A stretch of 64,000 bases of DNA, from positions 310,219 through 374,218 of the forward strand of contig PLCN01000002.1 in assembly GCA_003134785.1 (NCBI GenBank), in the 5' to 3' direction. The DNA comes from Spartobacteria bacterium. GTDB lineage: Bacteria; Verrucomicrobiota; Verrucomicrobiia; Chthoniobacterales; UBA10450. This document shows positions 27,104-35,662 of the stretch, piece by piece. Each line of letters opens with the position of its first letter. Position 1 is the first letter of the stretch. The translations under genes were made by a program, and so were the position numbers. A model generated the notes under the pieces. That model was given only the letters and a program-made list of their open reading frames with translations, did not search any database and had not been told where the DNA came from.

Positions 27104-27449
27104 ACTCTTTCCATTTGGATGCATTGCGGAGCACCTTTGGATTCAAGAACTTCGCGTCAACGCAGAGACGCCGGAATGTGTGCGCGATTTGTCAGCACGC
27201 TCGCTCCCATCGATGCGATCGGTGGACCGCAAAGCGAAGTCGCGTGCGCTATGTCTTTGCGCCCAGTCGGCTGTCGAAACTCTGAAGACCTAACGGATAG
27301 AGGTGAGCCACAGCCGTGGAAGCCGGGCGTGTGAAAGTACGAGTGTAAACGATTCAACGACGGCCAACGTAACAGAACGGCTCAAGGCTGTTGGCTCCAC
27401 TGAAGTGTTAAACCGCGCGGCGATCCGTTGGATGTTCGCCTCGCACTGC
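27104..27449. other. Intergenic stretch, no gene seen
   Basis: This gap lies between the divergently placed CPBP gene start and the end of the VOC gene. It holds a near-match of the recurrent motif (acctaacgg at 27288-27296). The listed ORFs are shadows or lack recognisable protein character. Confidence 0.5.
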
Positions 27450-27815
27450 TCACTCGAACCAGATCTCAATTTCGTAGCCATCCGGATCGGCGATGTAAGC
27501 GTAGGGGAGGCCGGGAGCGAACTCGCCACGACGGAGCAAGCGCCCTCCCGCGCGTTCGACCTCGGCGATGGCACGGTCGATGTCGTCGGGGTCCACGAGC
27601 CGAAAGCCGAAATGTGCGACGCCGCCACTGAGACCGGCGGTGGCGGGGTCCTCTGCGAAGGTGACGATGTCGTGCCTACCCGACGCCTGAGTGTGGACGA
27701 GTCCATCTCCGCGCCCGTACTCGCGCAGACCAAAGACCTGCTCGTAGAACCGCAGCGCGCGTCCCAGATCCCGGACGGCGAGATTGATGTGCGTAAGGCC
27801 GTAGGTCTGAACCAT
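27450..27815 (-). CDS. VOC-family (glyoxalase-like) protein
   Basis: The ATG at 27815 gives 121 residues (MVQTYGLTHINLAVRDLGRA), the normal length of a single two-module VOC protein. The signatures are LRFYEQVFGLREY, GVAHFGFRLVDPDDIDRAIAEVERAGG and PYAYIADPDGYEIEIWFE. Metal ligands are His9-like in THINLAV, His in VAHFGF and the Glu near the end. It may be a lactoylglutathione-lyase-like enzyme, dioxygenase or resistance protein. A TCTAACGAG motif variant lies at the 5' side. Confidence 0.88.
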   Translation of the reverse strand: MVQTYGLTHINLAVRDLGRALRFYEQVFGLREYGRGDGLVHTQASGRHDIVTFAEDPATAGLSGGVAHFGFRLVDPDDIDRAIAEVERAGGRLLRRGEFAPGLPYAYIADPDGYEIEIWFE

Positions 27816-27919
27816 TGTTACCTCGAAATTCTTTCGCGGTCTAACGAGATCAAGCTCAGCCACCGCTGACGAAACCGAGCTTTGCTGTGGACTTTAATGT
27901 TGAAACTGTCATGTGTTAA

Positions 27920-29325
27920 TTTTTCAAAGGGGGCAGCGGTTGGTTGGAGCGCTTAGATGACATGAGGGAGTTGTCGGGTGCGGGTTTGGGACCTACACCC
28001 GACAATATGAATAATACCATAAAGGTAGAGTCGTCCTCACTCGAGGAAACCCGCGGAGAGTTTAATCCCCGCGCCGTTGCGATCAAGCTTGGAATCGATG
28101 TGCACCAGGAGTTTTACGTGGTGGTTTGCCAGGAGGGAGGAGGCAACCCGAAGCCGGCGCAGCGCTTCAAGAAAGAAGCGTTCCTGAGCTGGGCGGCCAA
28201 GTTGAAGCAGAAGAGCGGGGCGGAGATCCACGCGGTCTACGAGGCGTGCGGGTTTGGGTTCGGCTTGCAGCCGCAACTGACGGCGCTGGGGATTGCGTGT
28301 TACGTGGTCTGTCCGCAGAAGTTGGATGAACGCAACCAGCGGGTGAAGACCGATGGGCGCGATGCCAAGGCGCTGTGCCTGAAATTGGATCGGCTGGTGG
28401 AAGGCAACCGCGAGGCATTGGCGCTGGTGCGGGTGCCGACTGAGGAAGAAGAACAACTGTGGGCCATCCACCGGCAGCGCGAGCAACTGGTCAGAGCGCG
28501 CAAACAGTTGGAAGCGCAGGGGCGCAGTCTGATGGTGAATCACGGGCTCGAGCCGGTGAAGAGCTGGTGGAAGCGGCGGACCTTTGCCGCGCTCTGCGTG
28601 CCGGAGTGGATGAAGCAGTTGTTGAGTAACTCGCAGCCGATTCTGCTGGCGCTGGAGGAAAAGATCCGCGCGCTCACCGTGCAACTCCAGGGGGCAGCCG
28701 CTCCAGGGCAACCGCGCGGACTTGGGGCCATGACCAGTGTGGTGATCGATCGGGAGATCGGAAGCTGGAACCGGTTTAACAATCGCCGCCAGGTGGGCAG
28801 CTACTTCGGTTTATGTCCCGGAGAGTACTCCAGCGGTCAGACCCGGGTCCAAAGCTGTGTGACCAAACACGGGAACCCGCGCTTGAGAGCGGCGCTGGTG
28901 GAACTGGCCGTGGATCTGTGGCGCCTCCGCACCGGCCGGCTCAACCCAGGGCAACTCGGGCTGACGGATTAAAACAAATGAGTTTGAGGGGAACAGAAAA
29001 AAAGGACCTTGCCTAACGAAACCTTAAGCTAAACCTAATATCCACTTTGGGATGTTGGCGTGTGCCCGTTACCTAACCTGATCGGCCTCACTGCCAGTTC
29101 GACGCTTTAGATTGGGCCACGCCTACGTTCCTCTTCCATCGATCGCATTGATCATATGGTCCGGCTACTGCCGTGACGGATAGGAGTAAGAGCCGCTGGA
29201 AACACAAAACCCAACGAGCCACAGGAAGAGGAGGCGTCTCCAAGATTAACTCAAACCACTTACCAACCCAAAACCAATGAACTAGAACGAACCCCATACC
29301 CTGCATCCACGCTTGACTTCCTATA
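27920..29325 (+). mobile_element. IS110-family insertion sequence (approximate limits)
   Basis: The transposase gene is preceded by a hairpin (ttgtcgggtg at 27971-27980 with cacccgacaa at about 27996-28005). It is followed by about 350 non-coding bases (28973-29325) of distinctly lower GC. IS110 elements have no terminal inverted repeats, so the ends are estimated. The transposase appears to carry an internal deletion. The 3' part contains one copy of the 9-mer (29011-29019). Confidence 0.6.
28007..28972 (+). CDS. IS110-family transposase with probable in-frame deletion
   Basis: The protein (321 residues from ATG 28007; 342 from the TTG at 27944) has the IS110 DEDD N-terminal domain (LGIDVHQEFYVV, YEACGFGFGLQPQL, VKTDGRDAKALCLKL). 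It also has the C-terminal Transposase_20 domain (GAMTSVVIDREIGSWNRFNNRRQVGSYFGLCPGEYSSG, VTKHGNPRLRAALVELA). The ending joins directly to VDLWRLRTGRLNPGQLGL. From memory, related elements carry roughly 40 more residues between these two segments, so I infer an in-frame deletion. It may be inactive. Confidence 0.85.
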   Translation: MNNTIKVESSSLEETRGEFNPRAVAIKLGIDVHQEFYVVVCQEGGGNPKPAQRFKKEAFLSWAAKLKQKSGAEIHAVYEACGFGFGLQPQLTALGIACYVVCPQKLDERNQRVKTDGRDAKALCLKLDRLVEGNREALALVRVPTEEEEQLWAIHRQREQLVRARKQLEAQGRSLMVNHGLEPVKSWWKRRTFAALCVPEWMKQLLSNSQPILLALEEKIRALTVQLQGAAAPGQPRGLGAMTSVVIDREIGSWNRFNNRRQVGSYFGLCPGEYSSGQTRVQSCVTKHGNPRLRAALVELAVDLWRLRTGRLNPGQLGLTD

Positions 29326-29331
29326 TAGGGG

Positions 29332-30657
29332 TTAGGTCTTTTTCATTCGAGCCAGGGCTTCCGCGAACAGACTCTGCACGTCCTCCAATCGGGTTGAAGG
29401 GTCGTTGTTGTAATCCATGAGTCGGTGATGATAATTGCGTCCCTCAGATCGTTCGTCCACGATTTGCCGCACCAACTCAAGCGCCGGGCGACGGTGGTGG
29501 AAACCGCCAGTCACCTCCGTGCTCGCTCGCTGGACCGCACAATAAATACTCCACTTTGTATCGGTCGGGGCGCACTTGCGAGTGTCGCTGCGGTTCCAAG
29601 CTGCTTCTGTAGAAAGGATGGCTGCGGCGCGCTGCACGATCTCGCGGTCCAAGTCATTCGGCGGAACGGGATGCGAAGTATCGATCTGGAAGCTCACCAC
29701 CCTAGCCCTAGCCGTGAATCCGGAGATTGGGAACCATCCGTATTCAGATCTCAGTACCCCCGATCCTTTGTCATATATCTCGAGTTCGAGAGGCCAGTTT
29801 GGAGAACCTGATTCCGTCATATCGCCTGCCCAGACTGTTGTCGGATTCCCGCTCTTGCGCCACACTCCGGTTGTGACCGCTTTGGCCGGCGCGATTGTCA
29901 GCTTCCGGTTTTCTCCGAAGAGAGATCCACACGAACCTTCCCATGATTTTTCGCCGGGATGGAACTCGCAAGCGGCAAGCGACTGAGGCGTACCGCCCGA
30001 GTCCGGCCGCGCCTGGTCTGCCCCGTCGATCAACAAGAATTCCTGCTGGAGGATGGCGTCACTAAGACCGGGATTCAGATTTTGGACGTAGGAACCTCTG
30101 GTGATGAGTTTGCGTCCAGAAGCCAGAATCCTGGGGCCGGGAACACGGCCGGCGTTGATCCCGTCGCGCAGTTCGGTGTCCCCATCAATGCCGGAGTGGC
30201 CGAGATTGCGCACCGTCGTGAAACCACTCTCCAAGTCTTCGCGAGCTGATTGCGCGCCCACTAGCACGCGTTTGCGTGGCGACTCGATGACGGCGAGCAA
30301 TATTCCCGGAGCGAACAGTCCGTTAAAATGGCGCTGCTGTTCCAGTTCCGGCGGCACAATGATGTCGAGAAATAAGTGGGTGTGACTGTCGATCAGTCCG
30401 GGCAGCAGCGTTGCGCTGCCCAGGTCGATTGTCTTGGCGCCTGCCGGCGGCTGTATCTGCGCGAGCGGACCGACTTCCTTGATCTTGCCGTTTTCAATCA
30501 GCACGCTGGCGGGCGAGAGCACATTTCCAGTGCGGGGATCAAGGAGGCGGCCAGCTTTAACTAGAGTTACAGGAGCGGACGGTTGGCCCGTGACGTGCCC
30601 GGCGGTAAGGATTGAGAACGCTAGTGCCAACAATAGGAAGGTTCGTATTTGATTCAT
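29332..30657 (-). CDS. Chimeric ORF: truncated amidohydrolase fused to an unrelated C-terminal domain
   Basis: Residues 1-217 have a signal peptide (MNQIRTFLLLALAFSILTAG) and the N-terminal part of a secreted imidazolonepropionase-like amidohydrolase: GRLLDPRTG, LLPGLIDSHTHLF (metal-binding His), GFTTVRNLGHSG and GPRILASGR. The barrel half with the remaining Lys/His/Asp ligands is missing. From about residue 218 the sequence changes to another protein (ACEFHPGEKSWEGSCGSLFG, GFHHRRPALELVRQIVDERS, HRLMDYNNDPSTRLEDVQSLF), which I do not recognise by function. The junction is near 30006. The amidohydrolase activity is almost surely lost. Its first 12 codons and upstream DNA are duplicated at 32133-32287. 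Confidence 0.7.
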   Translation of the reverse strand: MNQIRTFLLLALAFSILTAGHVTGQPSAPVTLVKAGRLLDPRTGNVLSPASVLIENGKIKEVGPLAQIQPPAGAKTIDLGSATLLPGLIDSHTHLFLDIIVPPELEQQRHFNGLFAPGILLAVIESPRKRVLVGAQSAREDLESGFTTVRNLGHSGIDGDTELRDGINAGRVPGPRILASGRKLITRGSYVQNLNPGLSDAILQQEFLLIDGADQARPDSGGTPQSLAACEFHPGEKSWEGSCGSLFGENRKLTIAPAKAVTTGVWRKSGNPTTVWAGDMTESGSPNWPLELEIYDKGSGVLRSEYGWFPISGFTARARVVSFQIDTSHPVPPNDLDREIVQRAAAILSTEAAWNRSDTRKCAPTDTKWSIYCAVQRASTEVTGGFHHRRPALELVRQIVDERSEGRNYHHRLMDYNNDPSTRLEDVQSLFAEALARMKKT

Positions 30658-30777
30658 TGTAGTTAGTCTCGTTAGGCGGAGTTATTCGAATGGGCCGCAT
30701 GGACGAACTCGCCAATAGCTTTGAATGTTGTCCAACGGGTTATCGTAAAAAAGGAAGTGAGCGCTCGACTGAATCTC
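30622..30777. repeat. 156-bp duplicated 5' segment, copy A
   Basis: This segment covers the first dozen codons of the chimeric amidohydrolase and its upstream DNA. It is nearly identical to 32133-32287. The shared part includes ccaacaataggaaggttcgt, the recurrent 9-mer in reverse (tcgttaggc, 30669-30677) and ggttatcgtaaaaaaggaag. Differences are few substitutions and a one-base indel. Confidence 0.9.
30682..30770 (-). pseudogene. Degenerate C-terminal fragment of an alpha/beta hydrolase, copy A
   Basis: The minus strand reads SSAHFLFYDNP, then departs from the frame that copy B keeps (VETFKAIGEFVHATHSN). A one-base insertion explains the change. The segment is a hydrolase 3' end carried along with the duplicated promoter region. 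Confidence 0.5.
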
Positions 30778-30833
30778 CGAGCGATTTTCGAGATTGATGA
30801 CAAAGTGTCCCTCCGAGCCTAGTACGCTCTTTA

Positions 30834-32168
30834 TCAACGCGCCGCATTTAGCTGCTTGAGTACATCCTGCACGCCGCTACGAATCTCGGCCCGCCGCTGC
30901 TCGGTATCGGACCACGACGACAGAGGCGCTTTGTGAGAATCAATCATGGCCAGTGCCTTTTCGGCGTACTGACGTGCCAGGTCTTTCTGTCCATCTTTCA
31001 AATAGGCATCGGCCAGGTTATAGTGCGCGTCCGCAGAGTCCGGATAAGCGAGAAGGTTGAGCTTGAAGATCTCGATCGCTGCGTTTATTTGCATCTTGGC
31101 CTCGCGCAACTGGCCAGCCTTCCTCTTCGACTCGCCTTCGCGCACATGGTCTTCGCCTATGATGTCGACGTTAACTTCCGGCAACAACTGCGCCTGGGGA
31201 TCTCTCCGCCGGGCTTCCATCAGTCGCTGCTTGATGCGCGCGACTCCTTCGGACGTCCAGAGTTGATTGAGGATTGCCGCAGATGCCAAGGCGTCCGCTG
31301 GTGCGTGCCCCGGCGTTTTAATCAGCGTGGTTATAAGCCAATCCACGATGATGCCGGACAGCTCCGGATGAACTTTGAACATGTCGGTTCCGTGGCCGCC
31401 CTTGGCGGAAACTTTGCTGGCATCGCTGGTTTCATACCATATCCAGGGCGCGTCTTGTGCAGCCGAATAGTGCACGAACTTCTTTCCCGGGCTGGAGGAG
31501 GTGATGTAGAGCCATTCCATCGCCTCGACCGTGGGAGGGTATTCGTCGTCGTCGGCCACGACGAACAGTCCGGGCAGTTGTGACGCCTCCCGCAGGAATT
31601 GCAGACCGTCTTGGAGGGTCTCTCCGGAAAGCAATACCAGCGATTTCACTTCAGCTGAGTGTCGACGCGCTACTTCGACGGAAGGAAGGACGCCGAACCA
31701 CCCGGCTCCTCCCACGCCGATGACATCGCGCTTCACGCCCGGCTGCGAAACCAAGTATTGAAACGCTGTGTCAACGTCGCTAGGCCACATCGTTTGTGCC
31801 TTTGCCTTCTCCGCGTCCGTCAGCTTCGTATAAGGCCCGCCGCTCTCGCCAAACCCGCGCATATCGAGTGTAAGCGTATTGATTCCAGCCGCAGCCAGTT
31901 GTCCGGCCAGATCATCCCAGGACTTACGCGTCCGGTTGATCTGATGCAGCAGCAGCACACCGGGACCTGGTTTGGCCGCTGCAAAGTAGCTTCCCTTCAG
32001 GATCGTCCCATCCGGAGCCTTTAGTTCGACTAGACGTCCAGCCGGTAGTTGCTGCGCCTGTGGCGCCGGAGTAGCGCTCGGCGTCGCGGTGCTCTTTGTT
32101 TCTTGTCCCAGGGCGCCGGCGGTGAAGATGGTTAGTGCCAACAATAGGAAGGTTCGTATTTGATTCAT
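30834..32168 (-). CDS. Secreted alpha/beta hydrolase with C-terminal TPR domain, nucleophile apparently lost
   Basis: The 444-residue protein has the same signal peptide start (MNQIRTFLLLAL) as the chimeric ORF downstream. A dienelactone-hydrolase-like alpha/beta domain spans about 45-290 (GVLLLHQINRTRKSWDDLA, NTLTLDMRGFGESGG). A two-to-three-unit TPR follows (about 345-425; SADAHYNLADAYLKDGQKDLARQYAEKAL). The elbow that should carry GxSxG reads GGAGWFG, with Gly156 where Ser is expected. The Asp (ADDDEYPP) and His (GGHGTDMF) are retained. Activity is doubtful unless another residue serves as nucleophile. Confidence 0.8.
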   Translation of the reverse strand: MNQIRTFLLLALTIFTAGALGQETKSTATPSATPAPQAQQLPAGRLVELKAPDGTILKGSYFAAAKPGPGVLLLHQINRTRKSWDDLAGQLAAAGINTLTLDMRGFGESGGPYTKLTDAEKAKAQTMWPSDVDTAFQYLVSQPGVKRDVIGVGGAGWFGVLPSVEVARRHSAEVKSLVLLSGETLQDGLQFLREASQLPGLFVVADDDEYPPTVEAMEWLYITSSSPGKKFVHYSAAQDAPWIWYETSDASKVSAKGGHGTDMFKVHPELSGIIVDWLITTLIKTPGHAPADALASAAILNQLWTSEGVARIKQRLMEARRRDPQAQLLPEVNVDIIGEDHVREGESKRKAGQLREAKMQINAAIEIFKLNLLAYPDSADAHYNLADAYLKDGQKDLARQYAEKALAMIDSHKAPLSSWSDTEQRRAEIRSGVQDVLKQLNAAR

Positions 32169-32287
32169 TGTAGTTAGTCTCGTTAGGCGGAGTTATTCGA
32201 ATGCGTCGCATGGACGAACTCGCCAATAGCTTTGAATGTCTCCACCGGGTTATCGTAAAAAAGGAAGTGAGCGCTCGACGGAATCTC
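32133..32287. repeat. 155-bp duplicated 5' segment, copy B
   Basis: This is the partner of 30622-30777. It carries the start of the TPR-hydrolase gene and its upstream region, including the 9-mer at 32180-32188. The two copies give different proteins the same signal peptide and presumably the same promoter. Confidence 0.9.
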
Positions 32288-32310
32288 AGTGAATGACCTG
32301 GATGGAACTT
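32183..32310 (-). pseudogene. C-terminal fragment of an alpha/beta hydrolase, copy B
   Basis: The frame ends EIPSSAHFLFYDNPVETFKA followed by IGEFV, a typical end of alpha/beta hydrolases (His of the triad in SAHF, then a last helix). The remaining 5' part of the gene is absent. Upstream sequence to 32442 shows no continuation. Confidence 0.55.
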
Positions 32311-32442
32311 GCCCGGAGCGTGGGCAAATAGGAGAGCGTGCGTTTTTCCCGGATAGCAATTGGGCCGCGATCTGGCTGTCGGTTTGAGCCACGAGACTGA
32401 CAGCTGATTAACAATGATGGCCTCCGACGGTCGCGCGCGGGG

Positions 32443-35160
32443 CTATTCATATCTGAGAGCGATGATAGGATCGACGCGCATGGCGCGGCGCGCCGGGACG
32501 TAACAGGCTACTAGAGCGACGCCCATAAGAAGGAGTGCAACTCCAGCGAAAGTAGGAGGATCGGTCGGCCTTACTCCGTAAAGGAGCCCGGCCATTAAGT
32601 GCGATACGATTAGCGCACCCACCAATCCAACCGCCGCGCCCGTAACAGCGAGGCGCACTCCCTGACCCATCACCAGGCGCATGACATCAACCCTCTCCGC
32701 ACCTAAAGCGAGTCGGATCCCAATCTCGTGAGTGCGCTCGCTGACGATGTACGAAATCACTCCGTAAATTCCAAGCCCGGCCAGCACCAGCGCGGTCAGC
32801 GCGAAGAGCGCGACGATTTCCATCAGGAATCGCCTCTGAGCAAGAGACGCGGAGACGGTGTCGTTCAGCATCTCGGCGCCGAAAACGGGAAGCGTTGGAT
32901 CGACCGATTGCACTTGCGTGCGCACCTGATCCAGAACCGCTGCGGCGTCCACGTTACCACGCAAAAATATCGCCAGATGGTGCGCGACGCGGCGCGACAC
33001 CGTCTGATACAGACTGGTATAAATTTCCGGAACTCTTGCGTTCTCCAGCGATTCGGTTCGAGCATCCGCGATAATGCCGACGACGGTGGCCCAGGAGGGA
33101 TCCGATGGAGAGAGCTTCAGATGTTTTCCCACCGGATCCTCGTTAGGCCAGTAAGTCTGCGCCATCGTCTCATTGATCACCGCGACCTCCGGCGCGTTTT
33201 CGTTGTCGAAGTCACTCAAGAGACGCCCGCGTAGCAGCGTCATGCCCAGCAAGTGAAAATATTCCGGCGTGACGACCGAAGCATCGACCAAAGGAGACCG
33301 GTCGGCGCCTGTCTCGCGGCCTTCCAGGATCAGCGGGACCGGCGGAGTTTGATTGTCTCGGTCATGTCCCAATGGAACCGCGCCGAAATCACCAATGGCC
33401 GCTTCTTCTACTCCGGGCAGCGCTCTGTTACGCCGCAGTATTTCGCGGACGAACGCCGCCTGCTGGGAAACCGTTGCGTAGAGGTCGGCCTTGGGATCAT
33501 TCGGATAAGGCAACCTCGTCCTGACTGTCATCACACTCTGTGGATTGAATCCCAGCCGCGCATTTAGTAAGTCCCAGAAGCTGCGCAGGAGAAGACTCGC
33601 AGTAATCATCAGGACCAACGAAAGGGCAAACTCCGTTACTACCAGTGCGCGCCGCGTGCGTGACTGTCGCCGCGACCCGGTAGAACTCCGCCCTTCCAGT
33701 TTGAGCGTATGAGTTAAGTCAAGCTGTGTCGCCTGCAACGCGGGAGCCAGACCGAAGATCACTCCGGCGCCGAGAGAGGCGCCGAGCGCGAAAAGCAAAA
33801 CAGGCCAGCTAATCGATAGGTCATTGAGCCGCGGCAGACTTTCTGGCACGAGTCGCGCGAGAAAGTCCTTCGTCAGAAAAAGAATCGTTAGGCCGGCTAT
33901 TCCGCCGAGCAGGGAAAGAACTAAACTCTCCGTTAACATCTGACGCGTTAATCGCTCCCGTCCGGCCCCGAGTGCCTGGCGAACGGCCATCTCCCGTCCT
34001 CTTGCGCTGGCGCGTGCGAGCAGAAGATTGGCCACGTTCACGCAGCCGATCAGCAACACCAATCCCACGGCGCCGAGTAGTAGAACCAACGGCTGGCGAA
34101 CATTGCCGACCACGATCTCCTTGAGCGGCAACAACCGCACTCTCCAACCGCTCTGCAGTGGGTAATCGGCGGGGAATTGTTTCTGCAACGATGCGACGAG
34201 CGCGTCTACCCGGCTTTGCGCCTCGGGAATCGTTAGTCCGGGCTTTAGACGGGCGATTGCGGTCGGAAGGTTCCGTCGGTTTCGCGGCGGGTGATCAGCC
34301 AATGGCGGGCCGTAAAAACTGGTAGCGGCCCAGATTTCAATATTGCGATCTCTGGTTGTTCCCCCTGGCGCCTGAAAACCCGGTGGCATGACGCCGATGA
34401 TTCGATACAAGTCGGTGTCCATTCGCACACTTTTGCCGAGGACATGCAGATCGCTCGCGAAGTCCCGCTTCCACATGGCGTCGCTGATGACGACTTCCTC
34501 CGTGAAACCGGGCCTATGATCCTCGGGATTGAAGGTGCGGCCCAACTGCGGTTTTACGCACAGCAGCGCAAAATAATCCGGTGCGACGATGAGCAAGCTG
34601 ACGCGCGCAGGTCGCGATGAGCCTGTAAGATTGTTGTCATCGTACCAGGTCGGCGATACGTATTCGAAAATTCCGGAATGCTGCAGGTCCTGCCATTCGG
34701 GCTCGGACATTCCCACATCCTGCGCGCCCACGCCCGGAAGATCATCCGCGATGCTAACCAGCTGTTCCGATTGTGGGTATGGCAGTGGGTGTAAAAGCGT
34801 GGCGTCGACGACACTGAAAATGGCCGTCGTCGCTCCAACGCCCAGTGCAATTGTCAGGATGACGATGGCTGTGAAGCCGGGAGATTTGCGTATCATCCGA
34901 AGGCTGTAACGAACGTCCTGGACGAGATTTTCGAGGAACAACATTCGTCTCTCTTCTCGAAACTGTTCTTTAACCGCCTCTACCGCACCGAACTTCAACA
35001 CCGCCTGGCGTCGCGCCTCGCCCGGCGACATCCCAGATCGAACATTTTCAGCGGTCTGCAGAGCGAGATGTTCCTCAATCTCGTCCTTCATTCGTTCGTC
35101 ATCTCGCCGCCTCGCCACCGTGTTGACCAGACGCATGAGGAACCGCCGCAGAGGTCTCAT
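32443..35160 (-). CDS. ADOP-type ABC transporter permease (MacB/FtsX family) with N-terminal prefix
   Basis: The ATG at 35160 gives 905 residues: an ADOP prefix (MRPLRRFLMRLVNTVARRRD, then DDERMKDEIEEHLALQ and GMSPGEARRQAVLKFG) followed by two MacB_PCD/FtsX units. The repeats show GCVNVANLLLARASARGREM and SERTHEIGIRLALGAERVDV, and the protein ends MRVDPIIALRYE. The start overlaps the PadR stop (ATGA), so the regulator and permease are translationally coupled. No ATPase is adjacent. It probably needs a shared ATPase or acts without one. It contains two copies of the 9-mer (33140 and 33885). Confidence 0.93.
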   Translation of the reverse strand: MRPLRRFLMRLVNTVARRRDDERMKDEIEEHLALQTAENVRSGMSPGEARRQAVLKFGAVEAVKEQFREERRMLFLENLVQDVRYSLRMIRKSPGFTAIVILTIALGVGATTAIFSVVDATLLHPLPYPQSEQLVSIADDLPGVGAQDVGMSEPEWQDLQHSGIFEYVSPTWYDDNNLTGSSRPARVSLLIVAPDYFALLCVKPQLGRTFNPEDHRPGFTEEVVISDAMWKRDFASDLHVLGKSVRMDTDLYRIIGVMPPGFQAPGGTTRDRNIEIWAATSFYGPPLADHPPRNRRNLPTAIARLKPGLTIPEAQSRVDALVASLQKQFPADYPLQSGWRVRLLPLKEIVVGNVRQPLVLLLGAVGLVLLIGCVNVANLLLARASARGREMAVRQALGAGRERLTRQMLTESLVLSLLGGIAGLTILFLTKDFLARLVPESLPRLNDLSISWPVLLFALGASLGAGVIFGLAPALQATQLDLTHTLKLEGRSSTGSRRQSRTRRALVVTEFALSLVLMITASLLLRSFWDLLNARLGFNPQSVMTVRTRLPYPNDPKADLYATVSQQAAFVREILRRNRALPGVEEAAIGDFGAVPLGHDRDNQTPPVPLILEGRETGADRSPLVDASVVTPEYFHLLGMTLLRGRLLSDFDNENAPEVAVINETMAQTYWPNEDPVGKHLKLSPSDPSWATVVGIIADARTESLENARVPEIYTSLYQTVSRRVAHHLAIFLRGNVDAAAVLDQVRTQVQSVDPTLPVFGAEMLNDTVSASLAQRRFLMEIVALFALTALVLAGLGIYGVISYIVSERTHEIGIRLALGAERVDVMRLVMGQGVRLAVTGAAVGLVGALIVSHLMAGLLYGVRPTDPPTFAGVALLLMGVALVACYVPARRAMRVDPIIALRYE

Positions 35161-35504
35161 GTCAGATCCTCCGCTTTCGCGTCGAAGAACCGACCGATGA
35201 TTGCGGCCGTTTGCTCCCAATCCCGTGTCTCCGCTCGCAGCTGTTTGCGTCCGGCGCGTGTCAGCCGATAGAAGCGTGCTCTGCGGTTATTCTCTGATGC
35301 ACCTAACTCCGACGCGATGGCACCTTCCTGTTCCAGCCTCAAGAGGACGGGATACAAAGTGCCTTGATTCACGGCCAGGACATCTCCGCTAATCTGCTCG
35401 ATCCGCCGGGCGATTCCGTAGCCGTGGACTGGTCCCATGACATCAAGAGTCTTGAGGACCATGAGCGCGAGCGTGCCTTGCAGAACTTCAGTTTTTTGTT
35501 TCAT
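35157..35504 (-). CDS. PadR-family transcriptional regulator
   Basis: The ATG at 35504 gives 115 residues (MKQKTEVLQGTLALMVLKTL). The PadR winged helix is evident in GPVHGYGIARRIEQISGDVLAVNQGTLYPVLLRLEQEGAI and ARFYRLTRAGRKQLRAET. PadR proteins usually repress the adjacent transporter until a ligand binds. Here the ADOP permease gene overlaps its stop by four bases, so this is the likely target. Confidence 0.93.
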   Translation of the reverse strand: MKQKTEVLQGTLALMVLKTLDVMGPVHGYGIARRIEQISGDVLAVNQGTLYPVLLRLEQEGAIASELGASENNRRARFYRLTRAGRKQLRAETRDWEQTAAIIGRFFDAKAEDLT

Positions 35505-35662
35505 AGCACCGACATTTTGGTTTCCAACAGGAAGAGTAGCACACGTTCTGTGGGAAAACAACAGGTCGCTTTTGCTATGCGGTCCCGTGGCCGTTTATCG
35601 GTTTTGAACTGGCCATCTTGTTGGCGTTGCGGCAGCGGTCATGGTGCTCGTATCGGTTCATT

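Follow-up and report, generated by a model that had tools for sequence, protein, structure and literature searches.

How did two neighboring genes whose products belong to different families come to begin with nearly the same DNA? In the window (the whole stretch of 64,000 nt that was analyzed, from an uncultured verrucomicrobial soil bacterium), two minus-strand segments, one upstream of and into gene A (copy 1, 156 nt) and the other at the start of gene B (copy 2, 155 nt), were 96.15% identical over 156 columns (E 1.6e-69), far beyond what chance would give. They differ by five substitutions and one indel, with the extra base in copy 1, and align as direct repeats of 114 and 47 nt at 96% identity with the indel between them and a spacing of 1510/1511. 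Each copy contains the 3'-terminal part of an alpha/beta hydrolase gene that has been lost (X), a leader, and codons 1 to 12, so that both genes begin with MNQIRTFLLLAL. Beyond codon 12 there was no similarity, and the mature proteins were assigned to different families by Pfam and gave no mutual blastp match. The initial annotation had pointed out the two near-identical segments, the first dozen codons shared by two different genes, and the one-base insertion, and all of this was confirmed. The features of the locus are listed in Table 1.

Table 1. Features of the A-B locus and its flanks, with positions in the window
Feature	Position	Strand	Basis
attC site	27288..27413	-	Model R1, 48.5 bits, E 2.3e-11
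Glyoxalase cassette gene with an attC site on either side	27450..27863	-	ORF start as listed overlaps upstream attC
attC site	27839..27961	-	Model R1, 58.4 bits, E 3.5e-14
IS110-family transposase between DUF6197 region and attC	27944..28972	+	Pfam
Gene A, mosaic open reading frame, 441 aa	29332..30657	-	
DUF6197 region, codons 218-441 of A	29332..30006	-	80-81% identity to G002 cassette gene
Amidohydrolase N-terminal half, codons 13-217 of A	30007..30621	-	Profile stops at 84/345; relatives full-length
Copy 1, graft: same segment as copy 2, upstream of and into gene A	30622..30777	-	Repeat alignment
Gene B, secreted alpha/beta hydrolase and TPR protein, 444 aa	30834..32168	-	Pfam; full-length B in relatives
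Copy 2, donor: tail of X, leader, codons 1-12 of B	32133..32287	-	Repeat alignment; 89% to G006 B leader
Remnant of X in two frames, frameshift at ~32288	32207..32348	-	Match to intact X
MacB/FtsX-type permease, upstream of B (in G004 upstream of A)	32443..35220	-	
PadR-family regulator	35157..35561	-	

The direction of copying was read from relatives. The B homologue of genome G006 starts with MKRIRTFLLVALTTFTAGALGQET, and its leader and signal peptide are 89% identical in DNA to copy 2. Two of the positions at which the copies differ lie within the stretch shared with G006, and at both of them the G006 base is present in copy 2 but not in copy 1. Full-length relatives of A have signal peptides of their own, namely, MNKLSILFAGLLVALFSTGH in G004 (where A starts with MNKLSILFAG), MNVSLIFSFAVGIF in G010 (MNVSLIFSF), and MRKLFTLLATLFFALF in PMSQ01000048.1 (MRKLFTLLA). 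Since the relatives of B keep the leader and signal peptide and full-length relatives of A have others, we conclude that the segment was copied from B to A; judged by these comparisons, gene B is its native owner. The ancestral gene order, which the initial annotation had proposed to settle by alignment to relatives, is FtsX-A-B in G004 and A-B in G006 and G010, whereas B precedes A in the window, and the B unit of the window is now flanked on both sides by the 155-nt direct repeats. The graft joint lies in frame between codons 12 and 13 of A, inside the signal peptide. The pair thus has a near-identical start with nonhomologous remainders as well as a donor and a recipient identifiable from relatives, as in a chimeric gene formed by partial duplication.

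The identity of X was established only through its intact form, since Pfam and PDB searches with the 34- to 69-aa fragment found nothing; among 83 genomes of the family, X had no close relative. In PMSQ01000048.1, gene A is followed by an intact alpha/beta hydrolase of 278 aa (Pfam Abhydrolase_1/6) with VIEIPNADHFLFYDEP near its C terminus, and the window fragment EIPSSAHFLFYDNP matches this C terminus. Upstream, the remnant in copy 2 continues in another frame (REKRTLSYLPTL versus SENRHLSYLPQL in the intact protein). It is frameshifted and its 5' end is cut off near the FtsX stop codon, while its last codons enter what was originally the spacer between A and B, as preserved in G006. This is the lost hydrolase whose 3' end the initial annotation had recognized in each copy. 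At positions 32287-32291, where the repeat has its 5' edge, 4 nt are inserted in comparison with intact X. This insertion puts the remnant in the donor copy out of frame and is perhaps a break scar.

Gene A has a second joint. Its amidohydrolase half (PF01979), 68 to 73% identical to the G004 and G010 proteins, covers profile positions 1-84 of 345, whereas the proteins of G004 and PMSQ01000048.1 match positions 1-345. The metal-dependent catalytic domain is therefore incomplete, and the catalytic C-terminal half is absent. At codon ~217/218 the amidohydrolase passes in frame into the DUF6197 region. Among the 213 genomes of the order, a DUF6197 gene of this kind was present only in G002 and in the genome of the window, and it was fused only in the window. 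To judge from these alignments, gene A is one open frame from three unrelated sources: the B leader, an amidohydrolase half, and a DUF6197 cassette gene. At the level of sequence, the comparisons show which three sources were joined, that the junctions are in frame, and that the copying went from B to A.

The third source was traced to integrons. In G002, the DUF6197 gene has its own signal peptide and a stop codon that shares bases with the R'' box of an attC site. It lies in a 13-kb cassette array (C54:14000-27000, locus L052) with 15 attC sites of 123 to 133 nt, and since an attC site within this run directly follows the gene at its 3' end, we regard it as an integron cassette. The array also holds many short secreted or unknown proteins. 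A covariance model (R1) was built from the G002 attC sites and searched over the window and the genome. It detected two attC sites in the window, 426 nt apart and in one orientation, and more than 20 further sites in the same genome, on contigs C3, C4, C9, C10, C22, and C23. Directly after the DUF6197 region of the window the model found no attC site; the DUF6197 stop codon there lies within an R''-like heptamer, ACCTAAC. Integron integrase matches were located on other contigs, the best of them (C10:4543-5484) with an internal TGA, and none was found on the contig of the window (C25).

Our preferred explanation, to which we assign a probability of about 0.8, is that gene A is a mosaic that arose by successive illegitimate rearrangements, a B leader graft and a cassette fusion. 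A stretch of ~155 nt with the decayed tail of X, the leader, and 12 codons of B would have been copied in frame onto the neighboring amidohydrolase gene, altering the n-region and half of the h-region of A while a signal peptide was retained. Separately, the amidohydrolase would have lost its catalytic C-terminal half, and codon ~217 would have been connected, with the frame kept, to the sequence for the mature part of a DUF6197 protein, the gene for which probably came from the adjacent attC array. Since A lies upstream of B in relatives and downstream of it in the window, the change requires a minimum of one duplication plus two deletions, unless template switching took place; we infer that the copying occurred either by local tandem duplication with deletions or by template switching. 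The likely product would be a DUF6197 protein that is exported and has an inactive amidohydrolase part as a spacer; its translation would start at the initiation region of B within a PadR-FtsX-B-A gene string. The protein is predicted to be made and exported, and it may have a function. If the repeats recombine with each other, B could be deleted or amplified as a 1.51-kb unit.

According to the initial annotation, a duplication had given a new promoter and a new export signal to another coding region. This stands for the translation start of B and the N-terminal half of its signal peptide, which were indeed placed on a second coding region, but not for the promoter: a scan for the sigma-70 consensus, limited to this promoter type, found no match in either copy. 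Furthermore, A begins 6 nt past the FtsX stop codon in G004 and is followed by B there, so that A and B are probably members of an operon. The export signal was not new either, because full-length relatives of A, as well as the DUF6197 gene of G002, have signal peptides. As A had a signal peptide before the graft, its export signal was replaced, not gained. The moved unit is a translation start with an export signal, and no sigma-70 promoter was detected in the segment. The proposed recipient exists, but instead of one gene it is a shortened amidohydrolase that continues, in the same frame, into an integron cassette gene.

Gene A could be an open pseudogene, a product of decay in which a chance deletion brought two damaged genes into one frame and the leader duplication is without functional significance. 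This alternative, which concerns function and not origin and overlaps with the main explanation, is rated at somewhat less than even odds. The catalytic C-terminal half is gone, the locus is rich in remnants (X in two frames, a broken attC site, the IS110 element), and the graft is too recent to show selection. On the other hand, 441 codons have stayed open across two in-frame junctions, the signal peptide is kept, and the DUF6197 part shares 81% identity with its G002 counterpart, at a dN/dS of 0.18. The corresponding value for the amidohydrolase half versus G004 was 0.22; both averages mostly reflect the time before the rearrangement, because the repeat copies differ by only ~4% and silent differences to the relatives amount to 34 to 51% (34 to 48% for the relatives of B). 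The purifying-selection signal in both halves may thus predate the fusion entirely. The same comparison indicates that the leader graft is young.

The mosaic origin of gene A could also be one recent case of a wider pattern, in which the leader and signal-peptide module of B was repeatedly copied onto unrelated neighbors; this reading would extend the preferred explanation and does not compete with it. In PMSQ01000048.1, a DinB gene near B has a leader and signal peptide 84% identical to those of B in G036 (E 4e-15), in a match of 70 nt that takes in the ribosome-binding region, and the leaders of a formylglycine-generating-type protein gene (QHQU01000111.1) and an alpha/beta hydrolase gene (G028) are 76% identical over 105 nt (E 1.5e-14). 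Among 200 ORFs of such loci, all of which were chosen because they contain B, each of the nine DNA matches that span a start codon without homologous mature parts paired bearers of the module. In addition, across 388 genomes of the phylum, a match of >40 nt to the module was obtained only in the window's own B, and the genome of the window contains no further copies. However, signal peptides of similar composition can converge, the cases are few and come from loci picked for B, and direction and timing are established for the window alone. For this last reason we propose only as a hypothesis, and as less likely than not, that in soil Verrucomicrobia and Acidobacteria the ribosome-binding-site region and signal peptide of the alpha/beta hydrolase-TPR gene were copied repeatedly to unrelated neighbors (an amidohydrolase, DinB, a formylglycine-generating-type enzyme, and an alpha/beta hydrolase). 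If true, the module would be a local donor of export tags, even for integron cassette proteins, which could leave the cytoplasm in this way.

The fusion was seen in one genome, a draft assembly in 25 contigs, and a mosaic might be created by joining reads at a short repeat. We consider such an artifact very improbable, as the copies differ at six positions and have different flanks, the junction between the amidohydrolase and DUF6197 parts is 600 nt away from the repeat, and the contig is 582 kb long. Ordinary paralogy of A and B over their full length, the result that according to the initial annotation would speak against its reading, could account for the common upstream sequence and first 12 codons but is virtually excluded by the different families, the lack of similarity after codon 12, and the other leaders of full-length A relatives.

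The mosaic reading of gene A has parallels in chimeric genes that arise by partial (5') duplication and in a Schistosoma japonicum gene family with a common promoter and signal sequence (PMC3434034). There, as here, the duplicated unit comprises the core upstream region and the signal sequence, and the mature parts behind it are unrelated. In S. japonicum, a eukaryote, the duplicons are scattered and repetitive elements lie at their source (PMC3434034), whereas the window contains one local bacterial copy; 1.5 kb separate the donor from the recipient, and the latter is in turn fused to a cassette gene. In our literature search, we found no direct precedent for the exchange of signal peptides between unrelated bacterial genes or for integron cassette fusion proteins, which does not prove that none exists. 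In the present case, the donor, recipient, direction, and junctions of a leader and signal-peptide graft are all readable, and the divergence of ~4% dates this bacterial event. Because related leaders also occur on other unrelated neighbors of B, it can be tested whether bacterial export signals are passed on as units of their own.

Clusters of attC sites without an integron integrase are known as CALIN (IntegronFinder 2.0, PMC9024848). Positions 27288-27961 correspond to this description and form a small chromosomal cluster, with two attC sites of one orientation beside cassette-type genes and no integrase found on the contig. Unlike in a CALIN, the DUF6197 cassette gene is fused into a noncassette gene by a junction inside the reading frame, not at the attC crossover point. 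By becoming part of a chromosomal gene, a cassette gene would thus have escaped from the integron system.

Two other possible connections of the B leader were considered and discarded. A stretch in it, GCCTAACGAGA, is similar to the terminus of the attC sites nearby; an origin of the leader from attC was rejected because model R1 gave only 5 bits. Matches of 28 to 30 nt to the leader in G017, G025, and contig C47 of G006 lie inside chorismate synthase genes and were judged to be due to chance. They concern 30 nt of the leader (positions 32179-32208), which are 90 to 97% identical to the antisense of the sequence for the chorismate synthase motif DSLGGVIEC in G006, G017, and G025.

In two sequences from genomes assigned to Acidobacteria, JAIQEU010000008.1 (locus L099) and PMSQ01000048.1 (locus L101), a DinB domain precedes B in one fused protein, and the signal peptide differs. 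Finally, IS1111/IS110 elements that target attC sites are known (PMC11187229 and references therein). The IS110-family element of the window adjoins an attC R'' box. The flanks of the element (27944-29050) are this R'' box on one side and TTTCGTTAGGC on the other; the latter resembles an attC R' end, and it is possible that the element was inserted into an attC site.
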